Source: Ideonella dechloratans (GTDB lineage Bacteria > Pseudomonadota > Gammaproteobacteria > Burkholderiales > Burkholderiaceae_C). From it: 64,000 bases of DNA. Under the pieces are notes generated by a model. The model ran no database searches. It saw only the letters and a list, made by a program, of their open reading frames with translations, and was not told the origin of the DNA. The stretch's first letter is position 1; every line of letters begins with the position of its first letter. Location of the stretch: positions 1,550,001 through 1,614,000 of the forward strand of contig NZ_CP088081.1 of NCBI RefSeq assembly GCF_021049305.1, in the 5' to 3' direction. This document shows positions 1,343 to 23,170 of this stretch, piece by piece. A program made the position numbers and the translations under genes.

Positions 1343-1346
<4 letters not shown>

Positions 1347-4297
1347 CGGCACCGCAGCAGCCCCTCGTGCCGCCGGCGACCGCGGCCGTGGACGTGAGCG
1401 CCCTGGTGGTGCCCGAAGGCGCCTCGCTCCCGTGGTTCGCCGCGGTGCTGGAGCACTCCGAGGTCGCGCTGGTGCTGGCGCAGGCCCAGGGCGTGCGCTA
1501 CGCCAATCCGGCCGCCCGCCGTCTGCTGGGCTGGGACGGCAGCCCGCTGGAGGGCCACCAGCTCTCCGACTGGGTGGCGCCCGAGGACCGGCCGCGCATC
1601 GCCGAGCAGTTGCGTCGGCGCCTGGGAGGCCAGTCGGGCCAGTTCTGGGAGGTGCAGGGCCTGCGCCGGGACGGCAGCCGATTCGATGTGCGTCTCTGTG
1701 GCCAGCCTGTCGTGGTGGACGGGCAGCCGGCCGATCTGGTGACCCTGTTCGATGTCAGCGAGACCCGCCAGGCCCTGCGCCAGGCGCAGTGGAACGCAGA
1801 GCTGCTGGACCACAGCGAGCAGCTGTCCCGCTCGGGGTCCTACGTGCTGGCCTGGCCCGAGGGCCGCCTGCGGCCCTCGGCCGGGCTGCGTCAGCTGGTG
1901 GGCACCCTGGCCGATGCCGGCGCCGCCGACCCGGACGAGGCCTGGGCCTGGGTGGCCCCGGAAGATCGCATCCGGGTGATGCAGGCCTGGCGCGAGGCCC
2001 GACCCGACCAGCCCTTCCAGCTCCAGCACCGGGCCCTGGGCGCCGAGGGCCAATGGTTGCAAGTGGTGCACCGCGGCGTGCTGCACACGCAGACGCCGGG
2101 CGACACCCCGCAAGGCATCGGGCTGGTGCAGGACATCACCCGCCAGCACGAGGCCGAGCAGAAGGTGCAGACCCTGGCCCAGTACGACGTGCTCACCGGT
2201 CTGCCCAACCGGGCCCACTTCATCCAGCAGCTGGCCGCGCGCATGCAGATCGCCCGATGGGACCGCAGCGGCTTTGTGCTGACGGTGGTGGAACTGCCCC
2301 AGCTGCAGGAGTTGCGTGTCACCCTGGGCCACGAGGCCGCCCAGACCGTGCTGCGCACGCTGGCCCAGCGGCTGCAACAGCAGGCGCAAGAGCAGGAGCT
2401 GGTGGCGCGGGTCAGCGGCCAGGGCCTGGCCCTGATGGGCCGGGCGGCGCCCGAGGTCCAACCCGAGGCCGCTCTGGAGCAGGCGCACCAGCTGCGCAAG
2501 TGGCTGCAAGCCCCCATGCTGATCGATGCGGCCGAGGTCCTGCCCCGCTGCCGCATCGGGCTGGCCATGTTCCCCGGCGATGGCCAGGACGGTGCCACCC
2601 TGCTGGAGGCGGCGGAGAAGGCCTGCGCACTGGCCGACGAGGCCGGCGGCGTGGCCTTCGCCCGCGCGGAGGCCCATGCCCATGCGCTGCGCGAGATGCA
2701 GATGGCCAGCGCGCTGCGCCATGCCCTGGAGCGCCAGGAACTGCGCCTGGTCTACCAGCCCCAGGTGTCGCTGAGCAGCGGGGCCATCGTCGGTCTGGAG
2801 GCCCTGGCGCGCTGGCACTCGCCGCAATGGGGCGAGGTGCCACCCACCGAATTCATCGGCGTGGCCGAGCGCAGCGGTCTGATCGGCGCGCTGGGCCAAT
2901 GGGTGCTGGACACCGCCTGCCGCCAATGGGTGACCTGGCGGGCCGCCGGCCTTCAGGCCCCGCGGGTGGCGGTGAACGTGTCACCCCACCAGCTGCGCCG
3001 GGGTGATCTGGCCCTGGCCGTGCAGCGCGTGCTGCTGGACACCGGCATGGACCCGCGGGGCCTGGGCATCGAGCTGACCGAGAGCGCGGTGATGGACGAC
3101 CCGGCCCGGGCCGGTCAGGCGCTCAGCGAGTTGCGAGCCCTGGGCGTCGAGGTGGCGCTGGACGACTTCGGCACGGGCTACTCCAGCCTGGCCTGCCTGC
3201 GCAGCCTGCCCATCGATGTGGTCAAGCTCGACCGCAGCTTCGTGAGCGACCTGGACAGCGCACCCGAGAGCATGGCCCTGACCCGGGCCATCCTGACCAT
3301 GGCCCACGGGCTGGGCATGCAGGTGCTGGCCGAGGGCGTGGAGAACGAGGAGCAACTCAACCTGCTGCGGTCCAAGGGCTGCGACCTGATCCAGGGCTAC
3401 TGGTTCAGCCCCCCCGTGGCCGCCGAGGCCCTCGCCGAACGCCTGGCCACCGGCTGGCGCCTGGCCGCGCGGCATCTCTCCCGCGACGACGGCCGCCGCA
3501 CCCTGCTGCTGGTGGACGACGAGGACAACATCCTGTCCGCGCTCAGGCGCCTGCTGCGCCGCGACGGCTACGAGATCCTGACCGCCCGCAACGGCGAAGA
3601 GGCCCTGCGCCGCCTGGCCGAGCACCCGGTGGACGTGATCCTGAGCGACCAGCGCATGCCCGGCATGACGGGGGTGGAGCTGCTGCACCGTGCCGCGGCC
3701 CTGTACCCGGACACCGTGCGCATGACCCTGTCGGGCTTCACCGATCTGCAGTCCATCATCGATGCCGTCAACGAAGGCGCCATCTACAAGTTCCTGACCA
3801 AGCCCTGGGACGACGACCGCCTGCGGGCCCATGTGGCCGAGGCCTTCCGGCGCAAGGGCATGGCCGACGAGAACCGGCGGCTGAGCACCGAGGTCGAGAC
3901 CACCAACGCCTTGATGGCCCATGTGAACAGCCAGCTCAGCGCCGCGCTGGACCGCCAGCGCGAGCAGGCCCTGCTGCTGCAGGCCAGCGTGGGGGGCGTG
4001 CGGGAGATCCTGGACAGCCTGCCGCTGGCGGTCATCGGCGTCGATCCCGACGGGCTGCTGGTCTATGCCAACGCCCAGGCCCACCGGCTGTTCCCGCCCG
4101 AGACGCTGGCGCTGGGCGTGCCTGCCCGCGCCGGCATGCCGGGTCTGGCTTCGGCCGGCAGCCAGGAGCACTGCGAGATCCAGGGCCAGGCTTGCCGCGT
4201 CTGGCGCCATCGGTTGGGCGCCGAGTCCGGGGCCTGGCGGGGCGACGTGCTGATCTGCCTTCCCATTTCCGAGGACCTCTGCCATGAATCCGCCTGA
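1343..4297 (+). CDS. PAS-GGDEF(degenerate)-EAL-receiver-PAS signalling protein
   Basis: 984 residues with at least five domains: PAS-type sensors (about 25-140 and 150-265), a GGDEF fold (275-440), an EAL domain (452-700), a response-regulator receiver (717-840) and a C-terminal PAS-like segment (from about 888). The GGDEF signature is replaced by SGQGL, so it should not make c-di-GMP. The EAL domain keeps GLEALARW, VNVSPHQL, ELTES, DDFGTGYSS, KLDRSFV and AEGVEN, so an active c-di-GMP phosphodiesterase is expected. The receiver has LSDQRMPGM (phosphoacceptor Asp) and the TKPW switch lysine seen in RpfG-like receivers. It is coupled to the upstream kinase by an ATGA overlap, which makes that kinase the natural phosphodonor. 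Confidence 0.92.
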
Positions 4298-4463
4298 CGC
4301 GCCGCCTGCACCGGTGCCCGGCCCGCCCGCTGCGGCCGGGCCCGTGCACCCTCCGGGTGAGGACCGCCTGGCCCACCTGTTCCGCCACAGCCTGTGCGAG
4401 GGGCGGCTCCACCCGCTCTACCCCTTGCTGCGCAAGTACCGGCAGGAGGCCGGTCAGCCATGA
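4284..4463 (+). CDS. small 59-residue protein between EAL and HDOD genes
   Basis: An ATG at 4284 opens a 59-codon frame ending at the TGA at 4461-4463. It overlaps the end of the EAL gene by 14 bases and the start of the HDOD gene by an ATGA. The first 25 residues are Pro/Ala-rich. The rest (EDRLAHLFRHSLCEGRLH then PLYPLLRKYRQEAG) looks like amphipathic helix. Being exactly bridged between two coupled genes favours real translation, if only as a coupling device. I recognise no family. It is too short and compositionally biased to exclude a chance frame. Confidence 0.5.
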   Translation: MNPPDAPPAPVPGPPAAAGPVHPPGEDRLAHLFRHSLCEGRLHPLYPLLRKYRQEAGQP

Positions 4464-5317
4464 GCACCGCCGCCATCTCGCTGGACAAGGTCCAGTCCTG
4501 CGTCGACGCTTTGCCGGCCCTGCCGCAGGCCGTGCGCGAGGTCATGCAGGCCCTGCAGCGGGACGATGTCTCCGTGGAGCGCAGCGTCCACCTGATCGAA
4601 CAGGACCAGTCCCTGGCCGCCCGCACGCTGCGGGTGGCCAACTCGGCCTTCTACGGCATGTCAGGGCGGGTCGGCCGCATCGGCGATGCCGTCACCCTGC
4701 TGGGCCTGCGGGCCGTCTCCGGCGTGCTGCTGGCCGTCTCCTTCACCCACGGCCTGGACACCCTGCGCTGCAGCGGCTTCAGCTTTCGCAGCTACTGGCG
4801 ACACAGCATGGCCACCGCACTGGCGGCCCGCCTGCTGGCGCCGCGCCTGCGGCTGGACCCCGACGAAGGTTTCGTGGCGGGGCTGCTGCACGACATCGGC
4901 AAGCTGGTGCTGGCCGCGCACTTCCCGGCCGAAGGCGCCCAGGCCCTGGCCCTGGCCCGCAGCGCCGATGTGTCGGATGTCGAGGCCGAGCGGGCGACCC
5001 TGGGGCTGAGCCATGCCGAGATCGGCGCGGTGCTGGTGCGCCACTGGCGCTTCCCGGCCGAAGTGGCGCAGGCCGTTGAACACCACCATCAGCCCACCGC
5101 TGCTGCCGATCCGGCCGCACGCAGTCTCGCCGAGTTGATCGAGGTGGCCAACGCCGTGGCCCATGCACTGGACCTGGCCGAGGACCCGCTGGAGGTCGTG
5201 CCGCCACTGGATCCGGCCCTCTGGCTGCGGCTGGACCTGAGCGACGCTGCGGCCCTGGCCCTGCTGGCCGGGGTGGAGCGGGGCGTGGACGACATGTGCC
5301 GTGCCCTGACCCTGTGA
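4460..5317 (+). CDS. HDOD domain signalling protein
   Basis: 285 residues from ATG 4460. A longer frame exists from 4394, but the 4460 start fits the HDOD N-terminus (SLDKVQSCVDALPALPQAV) and overlaps the small upstream ORF by ATGA. HDOD proteins are output domains related to HD phosphohydrolases; many have lost catalysis and act as scaffolds under two-component or c-di-GMP control. The characteristic region LLHDIGKLVLAAHFP (about residues 140-155) keeps an HD pair, so hydrolase activity cannot be dismissed. The gene belongs to the kinase/EAL operon, which suggests it relays that signal. Confidence 0.88.
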   Translation: MSTAAISLDKVQSCVDALPALPQAVREVMQALQRDDVSVERSVHLIEQDQSLAARTLRVANSAFYGMSGRVGRIGDAVTLLGLRAVSGVLLAVSFTHGLDTLRCSGFSFRSYWRHSMATALAARLLAPRLRLDPDEGFVAGLLHDIGKLVLAAHFPAEGAQALALARSADVSDVEAERATLGLSHAEIGAVLVRHWRFPAEVAQAVEHHHQPTAAADPAARSLAELIEVANAVAHALDLAEDPLEVVPPLDPALWLRLDLSDAAALALLAGVERGVDDMCRALTL

Positions 5318-5355
5318 TGCGGCACCCTGATGCCTGAGTGACCCTGGAGACGACC

Positions 5356-5910
5356 ATGCCCCGACTGCTGCTGGTGGACGACGAACCTTCCCAGCTCAAG
5401 GCCCTGCAGCGCACCCTGCGCGGCCTGTGCCCCGACCTGCACCTGGATCTGGCGTTGGGCGCGGAGGAAGCCCTGGCCCATGTGCGGGCCCGGACCCATG
5501 ACGTGATCGTGGCCGACCTGCGCATGCCCGGCATGGACGGCCTGGCCCTGCTGGGCGAGGCCGCGCGCTGGCAGCCGCTGGCGGTGGCCATGCTGCTGAC
5601 CGGCGTGGCGGACTTCGGCACCGCGCAGCGGGCCCTCAACGAAGCCGGCGTCTTCCGCTACCTCACCAAGCCCTGGGAGCCCGAGATGCTGCGCAGCCAG
5701 GTGCGCACGGCCTTGGCCGAATTCCAGCGGCGGGCGACCCAGCAGGCGCAGGCCACGGCCTGGCAGGCCGGGCAGGGCCAGCTCACGCCCCAGGAGTTGG
5801 AGCGACTGCGGTTGGAGCAGGAGGAGCCCGGCCTGACCCATGTGGAATGGGCCGATGACGGTGCGGTGCTGATGCCGGCCCTGGATGCCGACCTGTCCGC
5901 CCCGCGCTGA
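5356..5910 (+). CDS. single-domain response regulator (receiver)
   Basis: 184 residues. The ATG at 5356 is chosen over an in-frame GTG at 5338 because GGAG lies 7 bases upstream and the receiver begins MPRLLLVDDE. The acidic pair is D8/D9, the phosphoacceptor D54 lies in VADLRMPGMDG, and the switch lysine is in LTKPW. It lacks a DNA-binding or enzymatic output. After residue 120 there is a helical, Gln-rich tail and an acidic C-terminus. It follows the HDOD gene by 38 bases and most likely takes phosphate from one of the cluster's kinases. The receiver is of the same KPW type as in the EAL protein. Confidence 0.9.
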   Translation: MPRLLLVDDEPSQLKALQRTLRGLCPDLHLDLALGAEEALAHVRARTHDVIVADLRMPGMDGLALLGEAARWQPLAVAMLLTGVADFGTAQRALNEAGVFRYLTKPWEPEMLRSQVRTALAEFQRRATQQAQATAWQAGQGQLTPQELERLRLEQEEPGLTHVEWADDGAVLMPALDADLSAPR

Positions 5911-5922
5911 CCTGGGGGCTGC

Positions 5923-5935
5923 GGGGGGGGGGGGG
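5923..5935. repeat. poly-G tract (G13)
   Basis: Thirteen consecutive G between the receiver stop (5910) and the diguanylate cyclase start (6027). A second run, eight C, lies at 6016-6023 directly before that start codon. Tracts this long are slippage-prone and could tune expression of the cyclase, or could simply be an assembly weak spot. Confidence 0.85.
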
Positions 5936-6026
5936 TGTCGCGTCTGCCTGTCAAGTTTCCGGCCCCGCCGGCCGATATGACGAACAGCATCCGAAGCGGG
6001 TGCATTGAACCCTCGCCCCCCCCTTC

Positions 6027-8108
6027 ATGCGCGCCATTTCCCCACCATCCGCCGCGCACGTCACCTCCCGGTGGCGTGGGTGGATGCCTGCGCGCTGGCG
6101 CGGCTCGCTGCTGCTGCGGCTCACCCTCGGGTCGCTGCTGGTCGGCGTGCTGGCCACAGCCATGATCTCGGGCCTGCTGATCCGCGACGCCGAGCGGGAG
6201 ACCGAAGCCCGGGTGCGGCAGGTCGTGCTGCAGGACGCGGTGCACGGGGCGGCCGCCCTGTCGCGGCGGCTGATCGAGCGGCAGCAAAGTCTGCAGGCCG
6301 CCGCGCAGACGGTGCGCGATCCCGCGCGCTGGGACGCCTCCAGCGACGCCCATCCCGGCCTGGCCGTGATGTTCGACGACATCTTCGTGGCCGACCCGCA
6401 GGGGCGGGTCTTCCCCTCGCCCAATGACGATCCGCCACTCGGCATCCCGCCGGGGGCCCTGGCCCGGCAGGCCGGCTTCCTCACCACGGTCCAGGAAGCC
6501 CGCCCCCTGATCTGGTTGCTGCAGAGCGACGGCATCTCGCCGGGCCGGCCCGGGGCCGCCACCGCGGGTGCGCTCGCGGTCTTCACCGAGCCGGTGCTCC
6601 GCGCGGGCCATGTGCAGGCCGTCCTCGGGGGCGTGCTGCGGCTGGGTCGCACCGGGCTGATGGGCGATGTGGTCGAGGCCGGCCCCGACTTCGGCGAGGG
6701 GGCGATTTCCCAGCTGCTGGCGGTCACCGATGGCCAGGGGCGCCGCCTGGTGGAGGGCGAGGCGGCACCGGGCGTGTCGCCTGCGGCCTCCGCGCAGTGC
6801 TTGTCCGAGGCCATGCGCCGGTGGCGGGCCCAGGGCAGCCCGGTGGAGCCTGCCGGCGTGGTCTGGCTCGACGGCGACCAGATCGTGGTGGCCGCGGGTG
6901 TTCCGGGGCCGGACTGGGTGGTCTGGCGAGCCTATTCCCGTGCCGTGATGGTGGCCCCGCTGGACGTGCTGCGCGAGCGCTCGCTGCGCTGGGCGCTGGG
7001 CACCTGGGCGGGCCTGTCGCTGGTGCTGTTGCTCTACCTGGGCTGGCAGCTCAGTCCGCTGGCCAAGCTGGAGCGGCGCGTGGTGGCTCTGCTCGATGGC
7101 GCACAGGCTGCTGACGAGGGCTGGCCGATCGCGCGTGGCGAGATCGGTGCGCTCAGCGCCACCCTGCACAGCGTGGCCCTGGCGCTGGCGGACAAGGACA
7201 ACGAGAACCGGCAGCTGCTGGAGCGGCTGGAGAGCGTGATGGCGGCCGCCCCGCTGGGCCTGGCCTTCCTGCGGGGCGACCGGCTGAGCCTGGTCAACGC
7301 CGAGATGGCCCGCCTGCTGGGCTACGAGCCACGGGCGCTGAGCGGCCTGCCCGCCCGCGTGCTGCTGGCCGATGCCGGCGAGGCCGACCGGGTGCTGGGC
7401 GCCATCCAGGGCGCGCTGCGCACCGGCCAGGCCTATGTGGGCGAGCACCGCTTCCTGCGCCTGCAGGGCAGCAGCTTCTGGGGCCAGCTGCACGCCAGCG
7501 AGGTGCGGCCGGGCGAGCCCGAGGCCGGCATGGTCTGGACCCTCAGCGACATCACGACCCAGGTGCAGTCGCGCCATCAGCTGGAATGGTCCGCCACCCA
7601 CGATGCGCTGACCGGCCTGCTCAACCGCCGGGGCTTCGAGGAGCGCATGGCGCGCTTTGTCGAGGGCCGGCAGCGTCGCCCCACGGCCCTGCTCATCATC
7701 GACCTGGACCATTTCAAGCCCATCAACGACAGCGAGGGCCACCCCGCCGGCGACGCCATGCTGCAGGCGGTGGCCGCGGCCCTGAGCGAGGGCGTGCGGG
7801 CCAGCGACGCGGTGGGGCGGCTGGGAGGCGACGAATTCGCGGTGCTGCTGGAAGGCTGCCCGCCCCAGTGGGCCCAGCGGCTGGCGCAGAAGCTGCTGGA
7901 ACGGGTGCAGGCCGCGCGCGTGCCCTGGAACGGGCGCGTGCTGCAGGTCGGCGCCAGCATCGGCCTGGCCATGTGGGACGAGCGCATGGGCAGCGCCCAG
8001 CGCTGGAACCACGCAGCGGACCAAGCCTGCTACGAGGCCAAGCGCTCAGGCCGGGCGGCGGTGCGGTGCAGCAGCGCCGAGGCGCTGGACGAAGCCCTGC
8101 CGGGCTGA
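6027..8108 (+). CDS. membrane diguanylate cyclase with PAS domain
   Basis: 693 residues that should make c-di-GMP from two GTP. A membrane segment (about 25-50) is followed by a periplasmic sensor region of roughly 270 residues, a second membrane segment (about 325-344), a HAMP-like linker, a PAS domain (about 400-510) and a GGDEF domain (520-680). The active-site loop is intact GGDEF, and RASD lies five residues before it, a canonical inhibitory I-site, so product feedback is expected. No good ribosome site precedes ATG 6027; ATG 6084, after a GT-rich stretch, is an alternative. The G13 tract lies 92 bases upstream. It acts opposite to the EAL protein in the same cluster. Confidence 0.92.
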   Translation: MRAISPPSAAHVTSRWRGWMPARWRGSLLLRLTLGSLLVGVLATAMISGLLIRDAERETEARVRQVVLQDAVHGAAALSRRLIERQQSLQAAAQTVRDPARWDASSDAHPGLAVMFDDIFVADPQGRVFPSPNDDPPLGIPPGALARQAGFLTTVQEARPLIWLLQSDGISPGRPGAATAGALAVFTEPVLRAGHVQAVLGGVLRLGRTGLMGDVVEAGPDFGEGAISQLLAVTDGQGRRLVEGEAAPGVSPAASAQCLSEAMRRWRAQGSPVEPAGVVWLDGDQIVVAAGVPGPDWVVWRAYSRAVMVAPLDVLRERSLRWALGTWAGLSLVLLLYLGWQLSPLAKLERRVVALLDGAQAADEGWPIARGEIGALSATLHSVALALADKDNENRQLLERLESVMAAAPLGLAFLRGDRLSLVNAEMARLLGYEPRALSGLPARVLLADAGEADRVLGAIQGALRTGQAYVGEHRFLRLQGSSFWGQLHASEVRPGEPEAGMVWTLSDITTQVQSRHQLEWSATHDALTGLLNRRGFEERMARFVEGRQRRPTALLIIDLDHFKPINDSEGHPAGDAMLQAVAAALSEGVRASDAVGRLGGDEFAVLLEGCPPQWAQRLAQKLLERVQAARVPWNGRVLQVGASIGLAMWDERMGSAQRWNHAADQACYEAKRSGRAAVRCSSAEALDEALPG

Positions 8109-8887: not shown

Positions 8888-9217
8888 TCAGGGGGCCTTG
8901 GGCTTCCAGGCCGAGCACCAGCCCGCGGCCTTCACCTCGACCCCGTAGAACAGCTGGCAGCCGCCCTGGCTGTCGGCGGCCTCACCGCCGTACAGCTCGC
9001 AGTTGCGGCAGGTCTGGCCGGGGGCGTACTGGGTGAAGCGCTGGCGGTCCACCCGCAGCGCGTCGGCCACATAGCCCAGTTGCCGGGCGGTCGGGTTGTC
9101 TTCCTGCAGCAGCGGCAGCGATTGCGCCTGGGCGCCCAGTGGCGACAGGCCGACCGCAGGCAGGCAGACCGCAGGCAGAGCGCGCAACAAGGTGCGGCGG
9201 GTGGGGTGGTGGGGCAT
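8888..9217 (-). CDS. high-potential iron-sulfur protein (HiPIP)
   Basis: 109 residues. The N-terminus has a Tat-type signal (TRRTLLRA then a hydrophobic stretch ending GAQAQ). The mature part has the four cluster ligands C70, C73, C87 and C101 in the HiPIP pattern, ending GWCSAW. HiPIPs are periplasmic one-electron carriers with a 4Fe-4S cluster exported folded by Tat. They feed photosynthetic reaction centres or terminal oxidases in purple bacteria and relatives. The gene lies 34 bases from the TauE gene and 32 from the MFS gene, so the three may be co-transcribed. Confidence 0.93.
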   Translation of the reverse strand: MPHHPTRRTLLRALPAVCLPAVGLSPLGAQAQSLPLLQEDNPTARQLGYVADALRVDRQRFTQYAPGQTCRNCELYGGEAADSQGGCQLFYGVEVKAAGWCSAWKPKAP

Positions 9218-10668: not shown

Positions 10669-11433
10669 GTGAACTCCCCGACGGCGCGTTCTGCGCGCCC
10701 CGTGTCCTCCTCTGCCATCACCGCCACCAGCGCCCTGGCCGGCTCGGATTTCCTGCGCCTGCTGGCCGCCTGGGGGCTGGCCGCGCCTGCGACGGCCCCG
10801 GAGGCCTTCGGCCAGCGCCTGGCCCAGTGGTTCAGCTGGACGGACGCCATCGCCCTGTCCGGCGCCCTGGGCGGCCCGGCCGAGCCCGTGCCGGCCGGCC
10901 TGCTGACGGCCGCCGAGCGCCTGGCGGTGGAAACGCGGGAGCTGGCCCGGGTGCGTGCGCAGCTGCTGGGCCACATCCGCGGCGAGCCGGCCGGCGCCCG
11001 CAGCCGCCCGGCGGCGCGGGTGGCGGTGTCGCCCCGCGTGCAGGCCCGCCTGGCGGCCGAGCAGCTGGGCGACGAGGGTTTCGCTCCCCACCGCCAGCGC
11101 TGCCTGGCCGTGCACAAGGCCATGGACAACGCCATCGGTGCGCTGCGCCAGCGCGTGCGCGACGCGGTGGCCGCGGCCTCGCCCGCGCTGGCCCACCTGG
11201 CCACGCTGGACGTGGTGATGGAGGACGTGGTGGGCGGCCGCGAGCGGGCCCTGCTGGCCCAGCTGCCCGGCCTGCTGGCCCAGCGCTACGAGCGCCTGCA
11301 GGCCGAGGGCACCGAGGACCTGAACCCGCGCTTCCAGCGCGAGCTGCAACAGCTGCTGGAAGCCGAACTGGACTTCCGCCTGCACCCCGTGGAGGGCCTG
11401 CTGGACGCCTTGCGCCAGGCCGCCACGCACTGA
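10669..11433 (+). CDS. DUF3348 family protein
   Basis: 254 residues starting at GTG 10669. It has no membrane segment and no signal peptide; it is a largely helical, Arg/Leu/Ala-rich cytoplasmic protein. The conserved part (about residues 120-250) includes SPRVQARLA, CLAVHKAMDNAIG and a C-terminal block FQRELQQLLEAELDFRLHPVEGL. DUF3348 genes sit beside DUF802 genes in Burkholderiales; the function is unknown. It is the first gene of the motor-like locus, 19 bases before DUF802. A cytosolic partner or regulator of the DUF802 tail is the simplest inference. Confidence 0.8.
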   Translation: MNSPTARSARPVSSSAITATSALAGSDFLRLLAAWGLAAPATAPEAFGQRLAQWFSWTDAIALSGALGGPAEPVPAGLLTAAERLAVETRELARVRAQLLGHIRGEPAGARSRPAARVAVSPRVQARLAAEQLGDEGFAPHRQRCLAVHKAMDNAIGALRQRVRDAVAAASPALAHLATLDVVMEDVVGGRERALLAQLPGLLAQRYERLQAEGTEDLNPRFQRELQQLLEAELDFRLHPVEGLLDALRQAATH

Positions 11434-11452
11434 TCTGATCGACAAGGAACCG

Positions 11453-13756
11453 ATGAACCGCACGCTGCAACTGCTTGTCTTCCTCGCCGGCCTGGCGGGC
11501 ATCGCCTGGGTGGGCGCCGGCTACCTGGGGGTCAACTCCCTGGCCCTGGCGGTCACGGCGCTGATTGGCGCGCTCTACGCCACCGGTGCCCTGGAGCTGC
11601 GCCGCTTTGCCGGCGACACCGCCGCGCTGGACCAGGCCGTGGCGGCCCTGGACGGCTCGCCCGCCACCCTGGCCCCCTGGCTGGACGGCCTGCCCGCCGG
11701 CCTGCGCAGCGCGGTGCGCCGCCGCGTGGAAGGCGTGCCGGCGGCGCTGCCAGGCCCGGCGCTGGCGCCCTCGCTGGCGGGCCTGCTGGTGCTGCTGGGC
11801 ATGCTGGGCACCTTCCTGGGCATGGTGCTGACCCTGCGTGGCACCGGCGCCATGCTGGAGCTGTCCACCGACCTGAGCGCCGTGCGCGACGCCCTGGTCA
11901 CCCCGGTCAAAGGCCTGGGCCTGGCTTTCGGCACCTCCATCGCAGGCGTGGCCGGCTCGGCTGCGCTGGGCCTGCTCTCGGCCCTGCTACGGCGCGAGCG
12001 CCAAGCGGTGGTGCAGCGGCTGGATGCGGTCATCGCCGGCCCCCTGCACACCTTCTCGGCGGCGGCCCAGCGCGAGGAATCGCTGCGTCTGCTGCAGCAG
12101 CAGACCGCGCTGATGCCGGCCCTGGTGGACCGGTTGCAGGCCCTGGTGGAAGGGCTGGACCGCCGCAGCCAGGACCAGCAGACCCAGCTGCAGGCCGGCC
12201 AGGCCGAATTCCACGCCCGGGCCGAAGCTGCCTACACCGGTCTGGCGCGCTCGGTCGAGCAATCCCTGCAGCAGAGCCTGGACCGCGCCTTGACTGAGAG
12301 CGCCCGCGCCACCAGCGCCACCCTGGCCCCGGTGGTGGAGAGCACCCTGGGTGGCATTGCCCGCGAGGCCCAGGCCCTGCAGCAGACGCTGGCGGGTGCC
12401 GTGCAGACCCAGCTGGCCCAGCTGGGCCAGGGCTTCGAGGCCAGCCAGGCCCGCGTGGCCGAGGGCTGGCAGGCCGCCCTGGCCGAGCAGGCCCGCGCCC
12501 ACCAGGCCCAGGCCGAGACCCTGGGCCAGACCTTGCAAGGCTTCAGCCAGCAGTTCGAGGCCCGGGCCGAGGCCCTGGTCAGCGCCCTGGCCGCGCAGCA
12601 GCAGCTGGGTCAGGCCGACCAACTGGCCCAGTGGCAGGCCCAGATGGACCAGGCCCGCGAGGCCCAGCAGGCCGCGGCCCAGCGCTTCGAGCAGCAGGCC
12701 GCCGCGCTGGTGGAGCGCCTGGCCCAGGCCCAGGCCACGCTGGCCGACGAGGCCCGCCGCCGCGACGCCGCCCAGCTGGCCGAGGTGCAGAGCAGCCTGC
12801 AAACCCTGAGCGAGCGCCTGCACGCCACCTGGACCGAGGCCGGCCAGCAGGCCCTGGCCCAGCAGCAGCAGGTGGGCCAGGCGCTGGAAGGCGCCGCCAC
12901 CCGCTTCGAGACGCACGCCGCCACCCTGGTGGCCGGCATCCAGCAGGCCCAGTCTGCGCTGGAGACGGCCGCCGGCGAGCGCGACGCCGCCCGCCTGAGC
13001 GCCATCACCCAGGCGCTGGACGGCGTGTCCGCCCAGCTGCGGCAGCACTGGACCGAGGCTGGTGCGCAGAACCTGGCCCAGCAGCAGCAGATCTGCGAGA
13101 CCCTGGCCCGCACCGCCCAGGAGATCAGCGCCCAGGCCGAGGCCCATGCCCGCAGCACGGTGGGCGAGGTGGCCCGCCTGGTGGACACCGCGGCCCAGGC
13201 CCCGCGCGCCGCCGCCGAGGTGATTGCCGAGCTGCGCCAGCAGCTCTCGGCCAGCATGGCGCGCGACAACGCCCAGCTCGACGAGCGGGCCCGCCTGCTG
13301 CAGACCCTGGACACCCTGCTGGGCGCCGTGACCCAGGCCGCGCAGGAACAGCGCGGCGCCATCGACGCCCTGGTGGCCTCGTCGGCCCAGACGCTGGAGG
13401 CCGCCGTCACCCGCTTCAGTGAGACCCTGGCCGCCCAGGCCCATCCCCTGGGCGAGGTGGCCGCGCAGCTGAGCACCGGCGCGGTGGAGGTGGCCAGCCT
13501 GGGCGAGGCCTTCGGCCAGGCGGTGCAGCTCTTCACCCAGTCCAGCGGCCAACTGGCCGGTCAGCTGGAGCGCATCGAGGCGGCCCTGGGCCAGTCCCTG
13601 GCGCGCAGCGACGAACAGCTGGCCTACTACGTGGCGCAGGCGCGCGAGGTCATCGACCTCAGCATCCTGTCGCAGAAGCAGATCCTGGATGACCTGCAGC
13701 GCATCGCCGAGCGCTCCACCCAGGCGGCCGAGCGGGTGGAAGGGGCCGCCGCATGA
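11453..13756 (+). CDS. DUF802 protein: MotA/ExbB-like channel with long coiled-coil tail
   Basis: 767 residues. Four hydrophobic segments lie near 6-24, 28-48, 101-125 and 155-180. The third pair carries ExbB/TolQ/MotA-like features: GMLGTFLGMVLTL, and then PVKGLGLAFGTSIAGVAGSA, which matches the conserved pore helix pattern. From about residue 185 to the end it is a Gln/Ala/Glu-rich coiled coil of some 580 residues with two tandem 73-residue repeats (408-480 and 481-553). This is the architecture of ZorA of Zorya: stator-type A subunit plus long cytoplasmic tail. The next gene supplies the matching B subunit with an ATGA overlap. Confidence 0.85.
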   Translation: MNRTLQLLVFLAGLAGIAWVGAGYLGVNSLALAVTALIGALYATGALELRRFAGDTAALDQAVAALDGSPATLAPWLDGLPAGLRSAVRRRVEGVPAALPGPALAPSLAGLLVLLGMLGTFLGMVLTLRGTGAMLELSTDLSAVRDALVTPVKGLGLAFGTSIAGVAGSAALGLLSALLRRERQAVVQRLDAVIAGPLHTFSAAAQREESLRLLQQQTALMPALVDRLQALVEGLDRRSQDQQTQLQAGQAEFHARAEAAYTGLARSVEQSLQQSLDRALTESARATSATLAPVVESTLGGIAREAQALQQTLAGAVQTQLAQLGQGFEASQARVAEGWQAALAEQARAHQAQAETLGQTLQGFSQQFEARAEALVSALAAQQQLGQADQLAQWQAQMDQAREAQQAAAQRFEQQAAALVERLAQAQATLADEARRRDAAQLAEVQSSLQTLSERLHATWTEAGQQALAQQQQVGQALEGAATRFETHAATLVAGIQQAQSALETAAGERDAARLSAITQALDGVSAQLRQHWTEAGAQNLAQQQQICETLARTAQEISAQAEAHARSTVGEVARLVDTAAQAPRAAAEVIAELRQQLSASMARDNAQLDERARLLQTLDTLLGAVTQAAQEQRGAIDALVASSAQTLEAAVTRFSETLAAQAHPLGEVAAQLSTGAVEVASLGEAFGQAVQLFTQSSGQLAGQLERIEAALGQSLARSDEQLAYYVAQAREVIDLSILSQKQILDDLQRIAERSTQAAERVEGAAA

Positions 13757-14484
13757 TGGGCGAGGCCCAGCACGGCGACGTGGCCGAGGCCGATCTGGAG
13801 GCCAACGCGCCGGTCTGGCCGGTGTTCGCCGACCTGATGTCCGGCCTGGTGGGCGCGCTGGTGCTCATCCTGCTGTGCGTGCTGGGCGCCCAGTACGAGC
13901 TGAGCAGCCGGCTGGACCGCGAGGTGCAGCAGCGCCAGCTCGAAGCCCAGCGCCGCCAGGCCCTGGAGCAGGCCCTGGCCGGCCCGCTGGCCGCCGGGCG
14001 GGTGACGCTGGACCACGGCCGCATCGGCATCGCCGGCAGCGTGCTGTTCGCCTTCAACTCGGCCGATCTGCAGCCCGAGGGGCGCCAGCTGCTCAAGAGC
14101 CTGGCCGCGCCACTGGGTGCCTACCTGAAGGCCCGCGACGAGGTGCTGATGGTCAGCGGCTTCACCGACGACCGTGCCGTGCGCGCCGGTGGCAAGGCCG
14201 GGGGCAAGGGCGGCGAGCGGCCCTTTGCCGACAACTGGGAGCTCTCCGCACAGCGGGCGCTCACCGTCACGCGGGCGCTGATCGAGGAGGGCGTGCCGGC
14301 GGCCAATGTGTTTGCCGCCGCCTTCGGCGCGCAGCAGCCGGTGGCCTCCAACGCCGATGCCGAGGGCCGGGCCCGCAACCGCCGGGTGGAGATGGCGCCG
14401 ATGGCGCGGCCGGCCCGTGGCGGGGCCCCGGCCGCGTCTGCCGCCGCTGCTGTCGCTTCCTCTGCCCAGTCCGACCATGGCTGA
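13753..14484 (+). CDS. OmpA/MotB-like stator protein
   Basis: 243 residues. A short acidic cytosolic N-terminus precedes a single membrane helix that starts with WPVFADLMSGLV, closely matching the MotB/ZorB helix in which the Asp carries the ion (here about residue 27). After a charged helix (about 50-80) comes an OmpA peptidoglycan-binding domain with LFAFNSADLQPEG, VSGFTDD, NWELSAQRA and a C-terminal NRRVEM block. It should pair with the DUF802 protein to form a peptidoglycan-anchored ion-driven complex. It overlaps DUF802 by 4 bases and the DUF2894 gene by 8. Confidence 0.88.
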   Translation: MMGEAQHGDVAEADLEANAPVWPVFADLMSGLVGALVLILLCVLGAQYELSSRLDREVQQRQLEAQRRQALEQALAGPLAAGRVTLDHGRIGIAGSVLFAFNSADLQPEGRQLLKSLAAPLGAYLKARDEVLMVSGFTDDRAVRAGGKAGGKGGERPFADNWELSAQRALTVTRALIEEGVPAANVFAAAFGAQQPVASNADAEGRARNRRVEMAPMARPARGGAPAASAAAAVASSAQSDHG

Positions 14485-15115
14485 GCCCTGGTCGCCCGAA
14501 GCCGAACTGGCGGCGCTGCGGGCCGCGGGCCTGGACCGGGCCGACCCGGTGCGCTTTGCCTACCTGCAGGCCCTGGCCCGGCGCCTGCCAGCACAGCCCG
14601 CGCGGGCTCAGGCCCTGCTGGCCGAGCGGCTGCAGCAGGCCGCCGCCGCGCTGCGCGCCGCCAGCACCCAGCATGGGGCCCAGGCGCCCGTACCAGCACC
14701 CGCCCAGGCCGGTGCGCTGGCGGGCCTGCTGGCCCGGCTGACGCCCCCGCCCTCTGCGCAAGCGGCCCCCGCTGCGGCGGCTGCGGCCGTCCCGGGCCGG
14801 GCACCGGCTGCGACCCCGGCCGTGTCCGCCACCGCGGCCCCGGCCGAGCTGAAATCCGTGCGCCATTTCCGCCAGGCCTGGAAGCGGCTGAACGCCGAGC
14901 AGCGTCTGGCCCAATCGCGCGCGGCCCTGCCGCAGAACGCCGGGCCGCTCAACTCCCAGCACCTGGTGCACAAGGCGCTGCAGCAGATGCGCCAGCTCTC
15001 ACCGGCCTGCTTCGAGCGTTTCGTCGCCCAGGTGGATGGGCTGATGTGGCTGGAGCAGGCCCTGGGCGAGGCCGCGCCGCGCGAACCGGCCGGCAGCAGC
15101 CGCCCCCGGCGCTGA
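14477..15115 (+). CDS. DUF2894 family protein
   Basis: 212 residues from ATG 14477, which overlaps the OmpA stop by 8 bases; a longer in-frame start at 14306 would lie inside the OmpA gene. The middle (80-120) is Ala/Pro-rich linker. The C-terminal block (about 125-200) holds the recognisable family sequence SVRHFRQAWKRLNAEQRL then LPQNAGPLNSQHLVHKAL and MRQLSP. It is soluble, with no known catalytic motif. The function is unknown; in Burkholderiales it is the fourth gene of the DUF3348-DUF802-OmpA set, which suggests a cytosolic component of the same machine. Confidence 0.8.
   Translation: MAEPWSPEAELAALRAAGLDRADPVRFAYLQALARRLPAQPARAQALLAERLQQAAAALRAASTQHGAQAPVPAPAQAGALAGLLARLTPPPSAQAAPAAAAAAVPGRAPAATPAVSATAAPAELKSVRHFRQAWKRLNAEQRLAQSRAALPQNAGPLNSQHLVHKALQQMRQLSPACFERFVAQVDGLMWLEQALGEAAPREPAGSSRPRR

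Positions 15116-16047: not shown

Positions 16048-16067
<20 letters not shown>
15813..16067 (+). CDS. small uncharacterised protein (84 residues)
   Basis: 84 residues with a strong ribosome site (GGGAGG, 15801-15806) before ATG 15813. It is acidic, has no membrane helix, and reads as two or three helices (LPEHLHQALDGYPVEELFQM; VNIKSQMEMAREGLAEVIE). I recognise no family. Its last 20 bases overlap the 3' end of the hybrid kinase on the other strand. The good ribosome site and ordinary codon use make it a likely real gene. Confidence 0.7.
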
Positions 16068-18102
<2,035 letters not shown>

Positions 18103-18314
18103 GGTATGCCGAGCCTGTGGCAGACCATGCCCTGCAGAACCCGCCGGAACTGTGTGACATCTTCACCTTGGCCGGCCCGCCCCGCCGCCGTGGCCGGCCT
18201 GGCGCCAGGGCGGAACCGGGCCCGGTGCAGAATCAGGCGCGATGGCCAGGCGCCAGCCGCCACACCCGAAGATCGGCGGCCCGTCGCCCAGCCCGGAAGT
18301 ACCCCAGATCCCGC

Positions 18315-19889
18315 ATGAACCAAGACCTCAAGAAGACCCTCTGGGCCGCGGCTGACAAGCTGCGTTCCAGCATGGACGCGGCCGAGTACAAGCACATCGT
18401 CCTCGGCCTCATCTTCCTCAAGTACATCTCCGACGCCTTCGACCAGCGGCAGCAAGAGCTCTACGCCGCCTTCGAGGATGAAGCCCACGAGCTCTACCTG
18501 CCCGATGCCGAAGACCGCGTGCTGGCCTCCGAGGAGCGCGACTTCTACACCATGGCCAACGTCTTCTGGGTGCCGGGCCCGGCCCGCTGGGAGACCCTCC
18601 GCGCCAATGCCAAGCAGGCCGACATCGGCACCCGCATCGACCTGGCACTGGACGCCATCGAAGCCGACAACCCGCGCCTCAAGGGCATTCTGGACAAGCG
18701 CTTCGGCCGCGCCCAGCTGGAGCCCGGCAAGCTGGGCGAGCTGATCGACCTCATCTCCACCATCGGCTTTGCGGACACCGACGGCCATGCCGCCAAGGAC
18801 CTGCTGGGCGAAGTGTACGAATACTTCCTTGGCCAGTTCGCCAATGCCGAGGGCAAGAAGGGCGGCCAGTTCTACACGCCCGCCAGCGTGGTCAAGGTAC
18901 TGGTGGAGGTGCTGGCGCCGCACAAGGGCAAGGTGTACGACCCCTGCTGCGGCAGCGGCGGCATGTTCGTGCAGAGCGAGAAGTTCATCGAAAGCCACGG
19001 CGGCCGGTTCGGCGACATCTCCATCTACGGCCAGGAAGCCAACCCCACCACCTGGCGCCTGGTGGCCATGAACCTGGCCATCCGCGGCATGGACTTCAAC
19101 CTGGGCAAGGAGCCAGCCGACACCTTCCACCGCGACCAGCACCCCGACCTGCGCGCCGACTACGTGCTGGCCAACCCGCCCTTCAACATCAGCGACTGGG
19201 GCGGCGACCGCCTGCTGGACGACCGCCGCTGGGTGTATGGCACCCCGCCTGCGGGCAACGCCAACTACGCCTGGCTGCAGCACATCCTGCACCACCTGGG
19301 CCCGCGCGGCCAGGCCGGCGTGGTGCTGGCCAACGGCAGCATGTCGTCCCACCAGAACAGCGAGGGCGAAATCCGCCGCGCCATGGTGGAGGCCGACGTG
19401 GTGGAGGTGATGGTGGCCCTGCCGCCGCAGCTCTTCTTCAACACGCAGATTCCGGCCTGCCTGTGGTTCCTGGCCAAGGACAAGCGCCAGAACGGCCGCG
19501 ACCGGCGTGGCGAGGTGCTGTTCATCGACGCCCGCAAGCTGGGCCGGCTGGAAACGCGCGTGAACCGCGTGTTCGACGACGAGGAGGATGTGAACCGCAT
19601 TGCCAGCACCGTACACCGCTGGCGCGCCGACGGCAAAGCTGGTTCGGACGAGCCCTATGCCGACGTGCCCGGCTTCTGCCGCGCCGTGACGCTGGCCGAG
19701 ATCGCCGAACACGGCCATGTGCTGACGCCGGGGCGCTATGTGGGCGCCGAAGCCACCGACGATGACGACGAGGCCTTCAGCGAGAAGATGGAGCGGCTGA
19801 CCGCGCAACTGGCGGAGCAGATGGCCCGGGGGGCGGAACTGGAGGCGGTGATTCGGGAGAAGCTGGGAGGACTGGGGTATGCAGTCTGA
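18315..19889 (+). CDS. hsdM: type I restriction-modification methyltransferase subunit
   Basis: 524 residues from ATG 18315 ([17 protein letters not shown], the usual HsdM beginning). The earlier in-frame start at 18096 would run into the kinase promoter. The N-terminal HsdM helical domain is followed by an adenine-N6 methyltransferase with SAM motif [13 protein letters not shown] (about residue 208) and catalytic NPPF (about 287). With HsdS it methylates the recognition site; with HsdR added it forms the restriction complex. It overlaps hsdS by 11 bases. A 212-base gap upstream holds no gene and must contain the operon promoter. Confidence 0.97.
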
Positions 19890-21183
19890 AGTCCGTCAGC
19901 TCCGCGAACTTTGCATCCTGATCGCTGACTGCCCTCACAGTACGCCCGTCTGGACTGACTCTGGCTACGTTGTCGTTCGGAATCAGAACATCAAGAGCGG
20001 GCGACTCGACTTGAGTGCCCCATCTTTCACTGATGCCGAGCACTTTGCGCACCGTGTCCGACGGGCGAAACCTACTGCCGGCGACATCATCTTCACCCGC
20101 GAGGCCCCGATGGGCGAGGTGTGCATGGTGCCGCCTGGGCTCGAATGCTGCGTTGGGCAACGTCAGGTTTTGCTTCGCCCAAACCCAAAGGTGGTTGACG
20201 GCCGCTTTCTGCTCTTTGCGCTGCAGTCTCCTCAGGTTCAACACGAAATCGGCTGGAACGAGGGAACAGGATCGACAGTCAGTAATGTCCGGATTCCGGT
20301 ATTGGAGGCGCTTCGCATCCCCACGCCCTCGCTTGAGACTCAGCGAGAGATTGGGGAGGTTCTAGGAGTGCTTGACGATCGGATCGACCTCCTGCGCCAA
20401 ACCAACGCCACCCTCGAATCCATCGCCCAAGCCCTGTTCAAGAGCTGGTTCATCGACTTCGACCCGGTGCGCGCCAAAGCCGAAGGCCGCGAGCCCGAGG
20501 GCATGGACGCGGCCACGGCGGCGCTGTTTCCGGCGGAGTTCGAGGAATCGGCGCTGGGGTTGATTCCGAAGGGGTGGTGTGTGGGCACCTTCGGAGACTT
20601 GGCCGTATTAGGCAAGGGGTCCGTGAATCCCATGGACTTCCCGACGAGCACGTTTGAGCACTACAGCCTGCCGGCCTTCGACGCGGGGCAACTGCCAATA
20701 TTGGAAGAAGGGGCGTCTATCAAGAGCAACAAGACGCGTGTGCCACGTCGTGCAGTGCTGCAGTCGAAGTTGAACCCTCACATCCCCCGGGTTTGGCTCA
20801 TTGGCGATGCTGACAAGCAGGCAGTGTGTTCGACCGAGTTCCTGCCATGGATGGCCCGCGAGGGTGCAAGCCCAGCATTGATCTACTGCACGCTTCGCAG
20901 CCCCAGCTTTGAGGCTCAGGTCCGCACCCTGGTCACCGGCACGTCGAACAGCCACCAACGCGTGAAACCAGACCAAGTCGCGTCTTTGGCAGTTGTCGCC
21001 GCGCCGCCGGTTGTCGCTAGCGCGTTTGCCGCTCTTGTCGAGCCGATGCTTGGCAAGGTCCTGGCGAACCGTTTGAAGGCACAGAATCTCGCTGAGCTCC
21101 GAGATGCACTTCTCCCCCGCCTCATCTCCGGCAAGCTCCGCCTGCCCGAAGCCCAAGAACAACTGGACGACGCCCTCGCATGA
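19879..21183 (+). CDS. hsdS: type I restriction-modification specificity subunit
   Basis: 434 residues with two target-recognition domains, each followed by a conserved helical spacer. TRD1 is about 1-150, spacer 1 contains [19 protein letters not shown] and [16 protein letters not shown]2 is about 225-385, spacer 2 holds [20 protein letters not shown]. The TRD segments (roughly nt 19900-20390 and 20580-21100) are visibly lower in G+C than the spacers and neighbours, the usual sign of TRD exchange between strains. The methylation site cannot be derived from sequence alone. Confidence 0.95.
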
Positions 21184-22130
21184 GCAAAGCCCCCCTCGGC
21201 AAACTGGAGCGCATTCCGCTGCGCAAGGCCTGGGCCCATGAGGCCGGTGAATTCACGCCCTGGCTGGCACAGGCCGACAACCTGACCCTGTTGGCCGAGA
21301 CCCTGGGGCTGGACGAGCTGGAGTTGGTGGGCACCGAGCACCCGGTGGGCGACTTCAAGGTGGACATCCTGTGCTCCGACAACGGCGGCAAGGTCATCAT
21401 CGAGAACCAGCTTGAGAAGACCAACCACACCCACCTGGGCCAGATCCTCACCTACGCGGCCGGCGTGGGCGCGCGCAAGGTCATCTGGCTGGCCGAGTCC
21501 TTCCGCACCGAGCATGTGGCGGCGCTGGAGTTTCTGAACCAGCACACCACCGACGAGCTGGACTTCTTCGCGGTGGAAATCGAGCTCTGGCGCATCGGCG
21601 ATTCGCCCATGGCGCCCAGCTTCAACGTGGTGGTCAAGCCCAATGACTGGGCCAAGACCGGCCAGCAGAACGCCAAGGCCGCGGCCACCATGACGCCCAC
21701 CAAGCAGCGTCAGCTGGCCTTCTGGACGGGTTGGCAGGCCTGGCTGCAGGCCAAGGGCTCCACGCTGCGCACGCAAAAGCCGCTGCCCCAGCACTGGACC
21801 AATCTTGCGCTGGGCCGCGCCGGCGTTCACCTGGCCGCCACCGTGAACTCGCGCGAAAAGCGGGTGGGCATGGAGGTCTACATCGACCACGACAACTCCA
21901 AGGCCATGTTCAAGCAGCTGGAGGAGCAAAAGGCCGCCATCCAGGCCGAGCTGAACGCGACCCTGGACTGGCTGGAGCTGCCCGACGGCCATGCCTGCCG
22001 CATCATCCAGTACAGGCCGGATTCGCCGCTGGAAGACGAGGCCCAGTGGCCGGCCTATTTCGCCTGGCTGGAGGCGGCGGCGCTGGGCATGTCGGCGGCT
22101 TTCCGGCCGCGCATCAAGACGCTGGGGTAG
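21180..22130 (+). CDS. DUF4268 protein, probable PD-(D/E)XK-type fold
   Basis: 316 residues, ATGA-coupled to hsdS. The N-terminal part (about 30-120) reads GDFKVDILCSDNGGKVIIENQ then NHTHLGQILTYAAG, the pattern D...(I/V)IENQ seen in restriction-like nuclease folds. A tryptophan-rich C-terminal DUF4268 part begins around QRQLAFWTGWQAWL. Family members often lie in type I restriction operons, but their role is not established. Full coupling to hsdS suggests it is made with the restriction enzyme. The catalytic Lys is not obvious (ENQ instead of ExK), so activity is uncertain. Confidence 0.82.
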   Translation: MSKAPLGKLERIPLRKAWAHEAGEFTPWLAQADNLTLLAETLGLDELELVGTEHPVGDFKVDILCSDNGGKVIIENQLEKTNHTHLGQILTYAAGVGARKVIWLAESFRTEHVAALEFLNQHTTDELDFFAVEIELWRIGDSPMAPSFNVVVKPNDWAKTGQQNAKAAATMTPTKQRQLAFWTGWQAWLQAKGSTLRTQKPLPQHWTNLALGRAGVHLAATVNSREKRVGMEVYIDHDNSKAMFKQLEEQKAAIQAELNATLDWLELPDGHACRIIQYRPDSPLEDEAQWPAYFAWLEAAALGMSAAFRPRIKTLG

Positions 22131-22195
22131 GCTCCCGCCGGGGAGATGGCCGTGCAAGGCGGGCTGCCTTCGGCGGATAAGACAGGGAGCGGAAG

Positions 22196-23131
22196 ATGGA
22201 AACACAAGAGCTTGATGAGCAGGGCAGGGCGGGGTGGCAGCGGGCTGTGGAGCACGCTCGCCATTTCGCTGACGAGCATGGTTGGCAACTGGGCGTGCTG
22301 GAGATGGCGCTGGGGGCGGGCCTGCTGGCCTGGGGCATCCAGGATGGCGTGATCGACATGGGCACACAGCTGGTGGCTTCTGTGCTGGACCACGGCACCA
22401 CGGAAGGCGCCATCGGGGCCGCGACAGGCGGAGCCCTGGGGGTGTTGCCAGGGCTGGTGCTCAAGTCCATCGGCGTAGCCGCCATGGGGACTGCGTTCTC
22501 TGTGCCCGCGGTGGTCTTGATGGGGGGCGGCGCATTGCTCATGGGCTTGGCAGGCTATGGCGCGGGCCGGTTGGCGGCCGACTTTTTGCACCCAGCGCCC
22601 TCTCTGGGGGAGTTCATCGGCCCGGCGTGCCTGGCAGCGGTGGGTGTTGCCTTGTTGCTTGATGGTGCCCGGCGTTTGGCCCGCGATGAAGAGCTGCGAG
22701 GTGCTGTCTCTCGCTTCGCGGATGGCGTTCTCTACCTGCGGCATCTGCCCTTGCAACAGGTGTTGGACAACCGTGAAGCCTTGCTGGCCAGTCTGTCTGC
22801 CGAACTGACCGCGTTGTCCAAGAGCCCAGTGGGCATGGGCGGCGTGGCCACGGCCACGGCGGCGGGTGCCGCGGCCGGCAGTGCGCTGGCCGCCGGCTCC
22901 GTTACCGTGGTTGGCTCTCACGCCCTGGGTGGGGCGGCGCTGGCCCTCGGTCTGGTTTCTGCGCCCGTCTGGCCCGTGGTGGTGGGTGGTGCGGCCGCCG
23001 GTGGGGCGGCGTATGCGGCGTGGCGCTGGTGGCGCAAGTCCGGTACGGAGAGCCCTGAGTTTCAGATGCCTGTGTTGCCGCGCATGACGCCGCTGGCGAT
23101 TGAGTTCGATCCCCCCATCGGGGACAAATGA
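22196..23131 (+). CDS. unknown Gly/Ala-rich membrane protein inside restriction operon
   Basis: 311 residues between DUF4268 and hsdR on the same strand, with gaps of 65 and 39 bases. About five to six hydrophobic segments are seen: near 30-48, 72-98, 103-125, 138-158 and two in 213-280. They are rich in GxxxG/AxxxG patterns (glycine-zipper-like). Between them is a soluble helical stretch (165-210: EELRGAVSRFADGVLYLRHL). No enzyme motif and no family that I recognise. The position inside a complete hsd operon suggests an accessory or abortive role, but a chance passenger is possible. Confidence 0.75.
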   Translation: METQELDEQGRAGWQRAVEHARHFADEHGWQLGVLEMALGAGLLAWGIQDGVIDMGTQLVASVLDHGTTEGAIGAATGGALGVLPGLVLKSIGVAAMGTAFSVPAVVLMGGGALLMGLAGYGAGRLAADFLHPAPSLGEFIGPACLAAVGVALLLDGARRLARDEELRGAVSRFADGVLYLRHLPLQQVLDNREALLASLSAELTALSKSPVGMGGVATATAAGAAAGSALAAGSVTVVGSHALGGAALALGLVSAPVWPVVVGGAAAGGAAYAAWRWWRKSGTESPEFQMPVLPRMTPLAIEFDPPIGDK

Positions 23132-23170
23132 CAGGTGAGGTTGATGCGCTGATGGCCGCGAGGAGCTGAC

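Follow-up and report, generated by a model that had tools for sequence, protein, structure and literature searches.

A Zorya type III locus of Ideonella dechloratans: a probable anti-phage stator complex with two partner proteins modelled as helical

What does a stator-type membrane complex accomplish when it is encoded together with no effector that can be recognised? This question is raised by a four-gene locus of Ideonella dechloratans found in the 64,000 nucleotides of contig NZ_CP088081.1 analysed here (the window). A preliminary description, made from the letters alone, read the locus as an ion-driven, peptidoglycan-anchored machine with the Zorya body plan, in which DUF3348 and DUF2894 proteins take the place of ZorC, ZorD and ZorE, and considered either defence or envelope maintenance as its role. 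Our analysis retains the stator-type ZorA, the ZorB with an ion-site Asp and the replacement of ZorC/D/E, but not the novelty of the arrangement, which is already known as Zorya type III. In the papers that we found, structures have been solved for Zorya I and II, which have nuclease-type partners, whereas Zorya III is defined and phage-tested but not mechanistically studied. As the subtype with a motor and no recognised effector, it offers a clean place to ask what ZorAB does alone.

The four genes occupy positions 10669-15115 as proposed, all on the same strand and closely spaced (Table 1), and the claimed coupling of zorA3 to zorB3 was confirmed as an ATGA overlap at 13753-13756. The family names assigned by eye agree with the Pfam matches for DUF3348 (PF11828, 6.9e-52), OmpA (4.5e-20) and DUF2894 (PF11445, 1.1e-43); a DUF802 match was also present (3.7e-13), but it covers 52 residues of the ZorA3 tail (325-376) and not the channel part to which that name had been given. 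Promoter and terminator scans found none, and such scans say little in GC-rich DNA.

Table 1. Features of the Zorya locus and of the downstream defence cluster, in window coordinates
Feature	Position	Strand	Remarks
DUF3348 gene	10669-11433	+	254 aa; GTG start as called
zorA3, stator-type protein	11453-13756	+	767 aa
zorB3, OmpA/MotB-like protein	13753-14484	+	243 aa
ZorB Asp27 codon GAC	13831-13833	+	predicted ion-binding residue
DUF2894 gene	14477-15115	+	212 aa; ATG within 3' end of preceding zorB3
HsdM	18312-19889	+	PADLOC and Pfam
HsdS	19879-21183	+	PADLOC and Pfam
DUF4268/PDC-S11	21180-22130	+	PADLOC and Pfam
Protein without match	22196-23131	+	PADLOC and Pfam; between PDC-S11 and HsdR
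HsdR	23171-26377	+	PADLOC and Pfam

Each of the four proteins matched a type III model of PADLOC, namely ZorG3 (the DUF3348 protein, 5.7e-63), ZorA3 (9.5e-272, covering residues 1-761), ZorB3 (3.8e-104) and ZorF3 (the DUF2894 protein, 1.1e-55), with bit scores of 902 for ZorA3 versus 28 for ZorA2, and 345 for ZorB3 versus 60 for ZorB1. The features of type III membership were all observed: a ZorA3 with a long tail, a ZorB3 with the Asp and an OmpA domain, flanking DUF3348 and DUF2894 genes, and the co-occurrence of these components. The antiphage ZorA models of NCBIfam matched weakly and below cut-off (ZorA_1, 23 bits versus 190), and among the best 25 of 40 NCBIfam matches only PRK09040, a 'hypothetical protein', was above cut-off for ZorB (344.7 versus 194). 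According to PMC8565338, 6,401 such gene sets were described and named Zorya type III in 2021, and a Stenotrophomonas nitritireducens locus placed in E. coli BL21-AI lowered plaque formation by one or more of the phages tested. The window copy resembles that system in all four proteins and in their arrangement, and no material difference was seen. We consider it very likely that the four genes constitute an anti-phage system of Zorya type III, a judgement that takes identity and anti-phage role jointly and ends before the output step. Type III is likewise described by DUF3348 and DUF2894 in a 2025 paper, in which types I and II are those studied (PMC11890865). The naming of the accessory proteins is discordant, since both papers call DUF3348 ZorF and DUF2894 ZorG, the reverse of the PADLOC models.

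ZorB3 displays one hydropathy membrane stretch (residues 20-52) plus an OmpA-type peptidoglycan-binding domain, and the expectation of a single-helix OmpA protein with an Asp in the motif WPVFADLM (residues 22-29), placed as in MotB and ZorB, was borne out: in a profile of the ZorB N-terminal part (19 sequences), Asp27 aligned with Asp24 of 8vvn_B (E 5.5e-7) and Asp26 of 8qyd_F (E 0.00073). We take 8vvn to be the Shewanella and 8qyd the E. coli Zorya I complex. Asp27 is invariant in 29/29 aligned ZorB3 sequences, the window included (29 aligned out of 57 loci), and so are residues Thr138, Asp139, Asn161, Arg168, Asn209, Arg210 and Arg211 of the OmpA domain, which are of the peptidoglycan-binding type. 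In type I, D24 is the ion residue of ZorB, and types I and II need the Asp, peptidoglycan binding and the tail, as stated in PMC11890865. Judging from its alignment and invariance, Asp27 is the predicted ion-binding residue. When the own genome was searched with the ZorB protein, four weak matches of OmpA type (E 1e-9 to 9e-8) were obtained besides the protein itself.

ZorA3 carries approximately four membrane stretches, read from overlapping hydropathy segments (about residues 4-27, 29-49, 97-130 and 157-179), and these precede a tail of 582 residues (186-767), rich in Ala, Gln and Leu and with 5 prolines, so that the giant tail of about 580 residues announced for this channel-type protein is indeed present. 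When compared with the PDB, the profile of the ZorA N-terminal part produced a single significant match, 8vvn_C (4.6e-7). Residues Thr120, Ser162 and Ser169, invariant in 26/26 aligned sequences including the window, align with Thr and Ser in 8vvn_C. These are, in part after PMC11890865, the positions at which the polar ring of MotA and ZorA would be expected. Among 89 distinct ZorA sequences of at least 500 aa, length ranges from 530 to 1048 residues (median 749, the window copy being of mid-length), while ZorB stays near 218 residues (204-282, 57 loci), and the tail length is thus free to change within the subtype.

A motility stator, whether flagellar or accessory (MotA/MotB or MotC/MotD), would have in common with the window proteins the membrane plan, the OmpA domain and the helix bearing the ion-site Asp, and MotB-type NCBIfam models do match ZorB3. 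However, these matches lie far below their cut-offs among the best 25 of 40 (the best, MotD, 86.1 bits versus 283), no MotA was matched by the profile that recovered 8vvn_C, and MotA5B2 differs from the window proteins, which include the long cytoplasmic tail and two partner genes, DUF2894 and DUF3348, co-occurring in the same genomes (see below); we regard this alternative as highly improbable. The Zorya assignment, in turn, places the locus beside types I and II (PMC11890865), with which it shares the ZorA channel part, the long tail, the ZorB helix with the Asp and the OmpA domain, but from which it differs in that neither ZorC nor the ZorD helicase nor the ZorE nuclease was recognised by PADLOC in the four genes and 10 neighbours, DUF3348 and DUF2894 being found instead.

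The joint occurrence of the genes in other genomes, on whose presence the preliminary description had staked its reading, was observed: ZorB3, DUF3348 and DUF2894, the three components covered by this count, coincide in 43 genomes out of the 150 from the own family (115 genera), where a strong ZorB3 match was one with an E value of 5.5e-89 or better (the next match being 3.5e-29), DUF hits were those above cut-off, and the candidates scored per genome for ZorB3 were up to 18 in the family or 10 in the class. One genome outside the 43 had a DUF2894 match below cut-off (G134); in G124 a contig end truncates zorA, and the DUF3348 match is a fragment on a different contig. The four-gene order was the same in 54/56 relatives of a first set (53 by tblastn; in L076, DUF3348 by profile only), the two exceptions (L103, L126) being cut by contig ends, and in 33/36 relatives of a second set, composed of the loci with a strong ZorB3 among at least 80 loci listed, where the contigs of L169, L170 and L177 end in or just before zorA. 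The proposed conservation of gene neighbours therefore holds within the four-gene unit, whose order is recurrent and not due to chance.

As for the two accessory proteins, the AlphaFold2 model of DUF3348 contains helices only (pLDDT 85.6, pTM 0.77), and that of DUF2894 consists of a helical N-terminal part, a low-confidence linker and a helical C-terminal part (pLDDT 80.3, pTM 0.43). The DUF2894 alignment likewise displays a variable linker and a conserved C-terminal part with a GPLNS-like motif, followed by a mostly basic tail whose net charge is at least +3 in 76 of 86 motif carriers and 0 in six (3/89 are without the motif); a charge of about +3 is likewise seen in the final 30 residues of ZorB, which makes this basic tail weak evidence. 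Neither model had a Foldseek match in the PDB at E 0.001, no enzyme domain exceeded the Pfam or NCBIfam cut-offs in either protein, and PADLOC gave strong matches to Zorya models only, with a BrxC match at 0.0064 besides. Searches with Pfam, NCBIfam, PADLOC and Foldseek recognised neither a nuclease nor any other effector in the locus, unlike types I and II, which act through nuclease-type partners (PMC11890865). The most likely role of DUF3348 and DUF2894 is that of helical adaptors or regulators acting at the ZorA tail, and both were proposed as ZorAB regulators in PMC8565338.

A hidden fifth gene was also considered, and rejected, as single-linkage clustering of the ORFs of at least 60 aa within 4 kb on each side of 91 distinct loci yielded no widely shared family (two duplicate loci were dropped; 84/91 loci had 3 kb upstream and 88/91 had 3 kb downstream). 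The largest flank clusters were the family of the histidine kinase of the window (12/91) and a family that appeared LysR-like by eye (10/91), both in both orientations; comparison of the flanks of 57 loci led to much the same result.

By homology with Zorya I and II, the steps as far as the tail may be proposed as follows. Within the inner membrane, ZorA and ZorB would make up a stator-like complex driven by ions, the OmpA domain of ZorB would sense or grip the peptidoglycan once a phage perturbs the envelope, and the passage of ions at Asp27 would be converted into movement along the ZorA tail into the cytoplasm, where the two helical adaptors would receive it. Because no catalytic domain was found, the output would probably be exerted either on the ion path of ZorAB, which would be made to leak or to stall, or by recruiting a host factor or nucleic acid, perhaps via the basic DUF2894 tail; this last step is a guess. 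A narrower form of the first option, which refines the Zorya type III reading and is compatible with it, is an abortive-infection device that acts by ion leak with no separate effector, DUF3348 and DUF2894 gating ZorAB. The lack of enzyme domains above cut-off, the helix-only accessory models, the absence of a fifth shared gene and the published proposal of ZorAB regulators are all in its favour, but the nuclease-type partners of types I and II raise the possibility that a host protein supplies the missing function, and the DUF2894 tail, basic in most sequences, could bind nucleic acid. We hold this refinement as a tentative possibility, with the balance somewhat against it.

The distribution of the locus bears on whether it is kept for defence. 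In the own genus, DUF3348 was found in 10/14 genomes; in the class, a strong ZorB3 was found in 8/281 genomes (6/278 outside the own family); in a second family, DUF3348 was present in 53/150 genomes and 16/44 genera, and five of these genera contributed 7, 7, 6, 6 and 6 hits as bare counts. A soil strain of Variovorax that carries Zorya type III is named in PMC11953036. Carriage by phages or plasmids was rejected: the DUF3348 query matched none of 50,697 phage records and 23 of 72,556 plasmid records, each of the latter a large replicon (0.59-3.2 Mb) of a Burkholderiales genus. On viral contigs, the ZorB3 profile gave 38 weak matches (23-44% identity), mostly to the OmpA region, and in two contigs (L246, L247) the weak match spanned residues 8-215 at 23% identity. 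A fixed genomic address was also rejected, since the flanks differ between genera (91 loci) and the left flank of the window is common only to its near relatives L121, L123 and L124; close relatives of the MFS neighbour also flank the locus in G004, G008 and G010, and those of the PH-domain neighbour do so in G008 and G010.

Retention within lineages was assessed with the 33 genera represented by exactly two species in the 150-genome draw (one genome per species). Zorya III was present in both species in seven genera, in one in three and in none in 23, while random placement of the 43 genomes gave a mean of 2.7 genera with both, and 118/20,000 shuffles reached seven. In the same genomes, the both/split counts were 1/8 for Wadjet JetD (25/150 genomes) and 0/6 for PglZ (10/150), with a Fisher P of 0.0017 for Zorya III against the two pooled, and 16/14, 8/12, 5/14 and 2/12 for HsdR (HSDR_N) at E 1e-3, 1e-20, 1e-30 and 1e-40 (106, 64, 58 and 37 of 150 genomes, respectively), with no excess over shuffles. 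Zorya III is thus more lineage-stable than JetD, PglZ or HsdR in these genomes, a contrast built on small numbers and three comparison families. The own genus is outside the pair counts, three species having been drawn, two with the locus and one without. A tree built from ZorA+ZorB had 35 rows (34 of the 36 second-set loci and the window), and in it six Lysobacterales form one clade (100/98) among Burkholderiaceae, which suggests, from the gene tree alone, one old cross-order transfer; in the same tree two Marinobacter pair outside, and Comamonadaceae appear in at least three places. The pattern is one of retention within genera and relocation or transfer between genera, and no statement of such lineage retention turned up in our searches of open-licence papers on Zorya.

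On the question of defence or envelope maintenance, these observations lean to defence while being mixed. The lean is due to the patchiness of the locus (43/150), to its lack of a fixed address between genera and to the adjoining type I restriction system, which together with PDC-S11 constitutes a small defence cluster 3 kb downstream (18312-26377) that is not part of Zorya. The lineage stability and a null CRISPRi screen pull in the opposite direction. In that screen, carried out in B. cenocepacia with phage Bcep176, activity was detected for none of the predicted defence systems, Zorya III among them, 3 of 34 genes having too few guides, although the Zorya I and III operons showed a transcriptional change in their first one or two genes (PMC12584637). 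Accordingly, the locus could be a resident machine for envelope integrity or stress, kept for host physiology and protecting from phages as a by-product. The both/split contrast with the other defence families, the abundance of DUF3348 in the second family, its restriction among plasmids to large replicons with no phage record, and the outcome of the only native-host screen that we found would all fit such a resident. It would sit poorly, however, with a presence in 43/150 family genomes and in 6/278 class genomes outside the family, with the absence of a shared neighbourhood between loci, with the phage protection published for E. coli and with the restriction system next door, and we deem it distinctly unlikely. 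A broader and speculative proposal, which we also rate as rather unlikely, is that Zorya III, rather than being a defence cassette that travels in the usual way, is a resident machine for surveillance of the envelope, stable within lineages of Burkholderiales and Lysobacterales and working with no dedicated nuclease, whose two helical adaptors would turn ZorAB motion into an output of a new type, either by controlling the ion path or by capturing incoming DNA or a host factor. The stability contrast also permits a test of whether a system catalogued as defence benefits its host in further ways.

The remaining surroundings of the Zorya type III locus include, upstream (1343-8108), a signalling run of PAS-GGDEF-EAL-receiver, HDOD, response regulator and PAS-GGDEF proteins, and a gene for a high-potential iron-sulfur protein (HiPIP) at 8888-9217. 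On the other side, a hybrid histidine kinase gene on the minus strand (16048-18102) adjoins the locus; members of its cluster lie downstream in 12/91 loci in mixed orientation and are probably paralogues, perhaps representing an old neighbour in the nearest clade. Farther away, the window contains a gene for an IS110-family transposase at 57342-58439.
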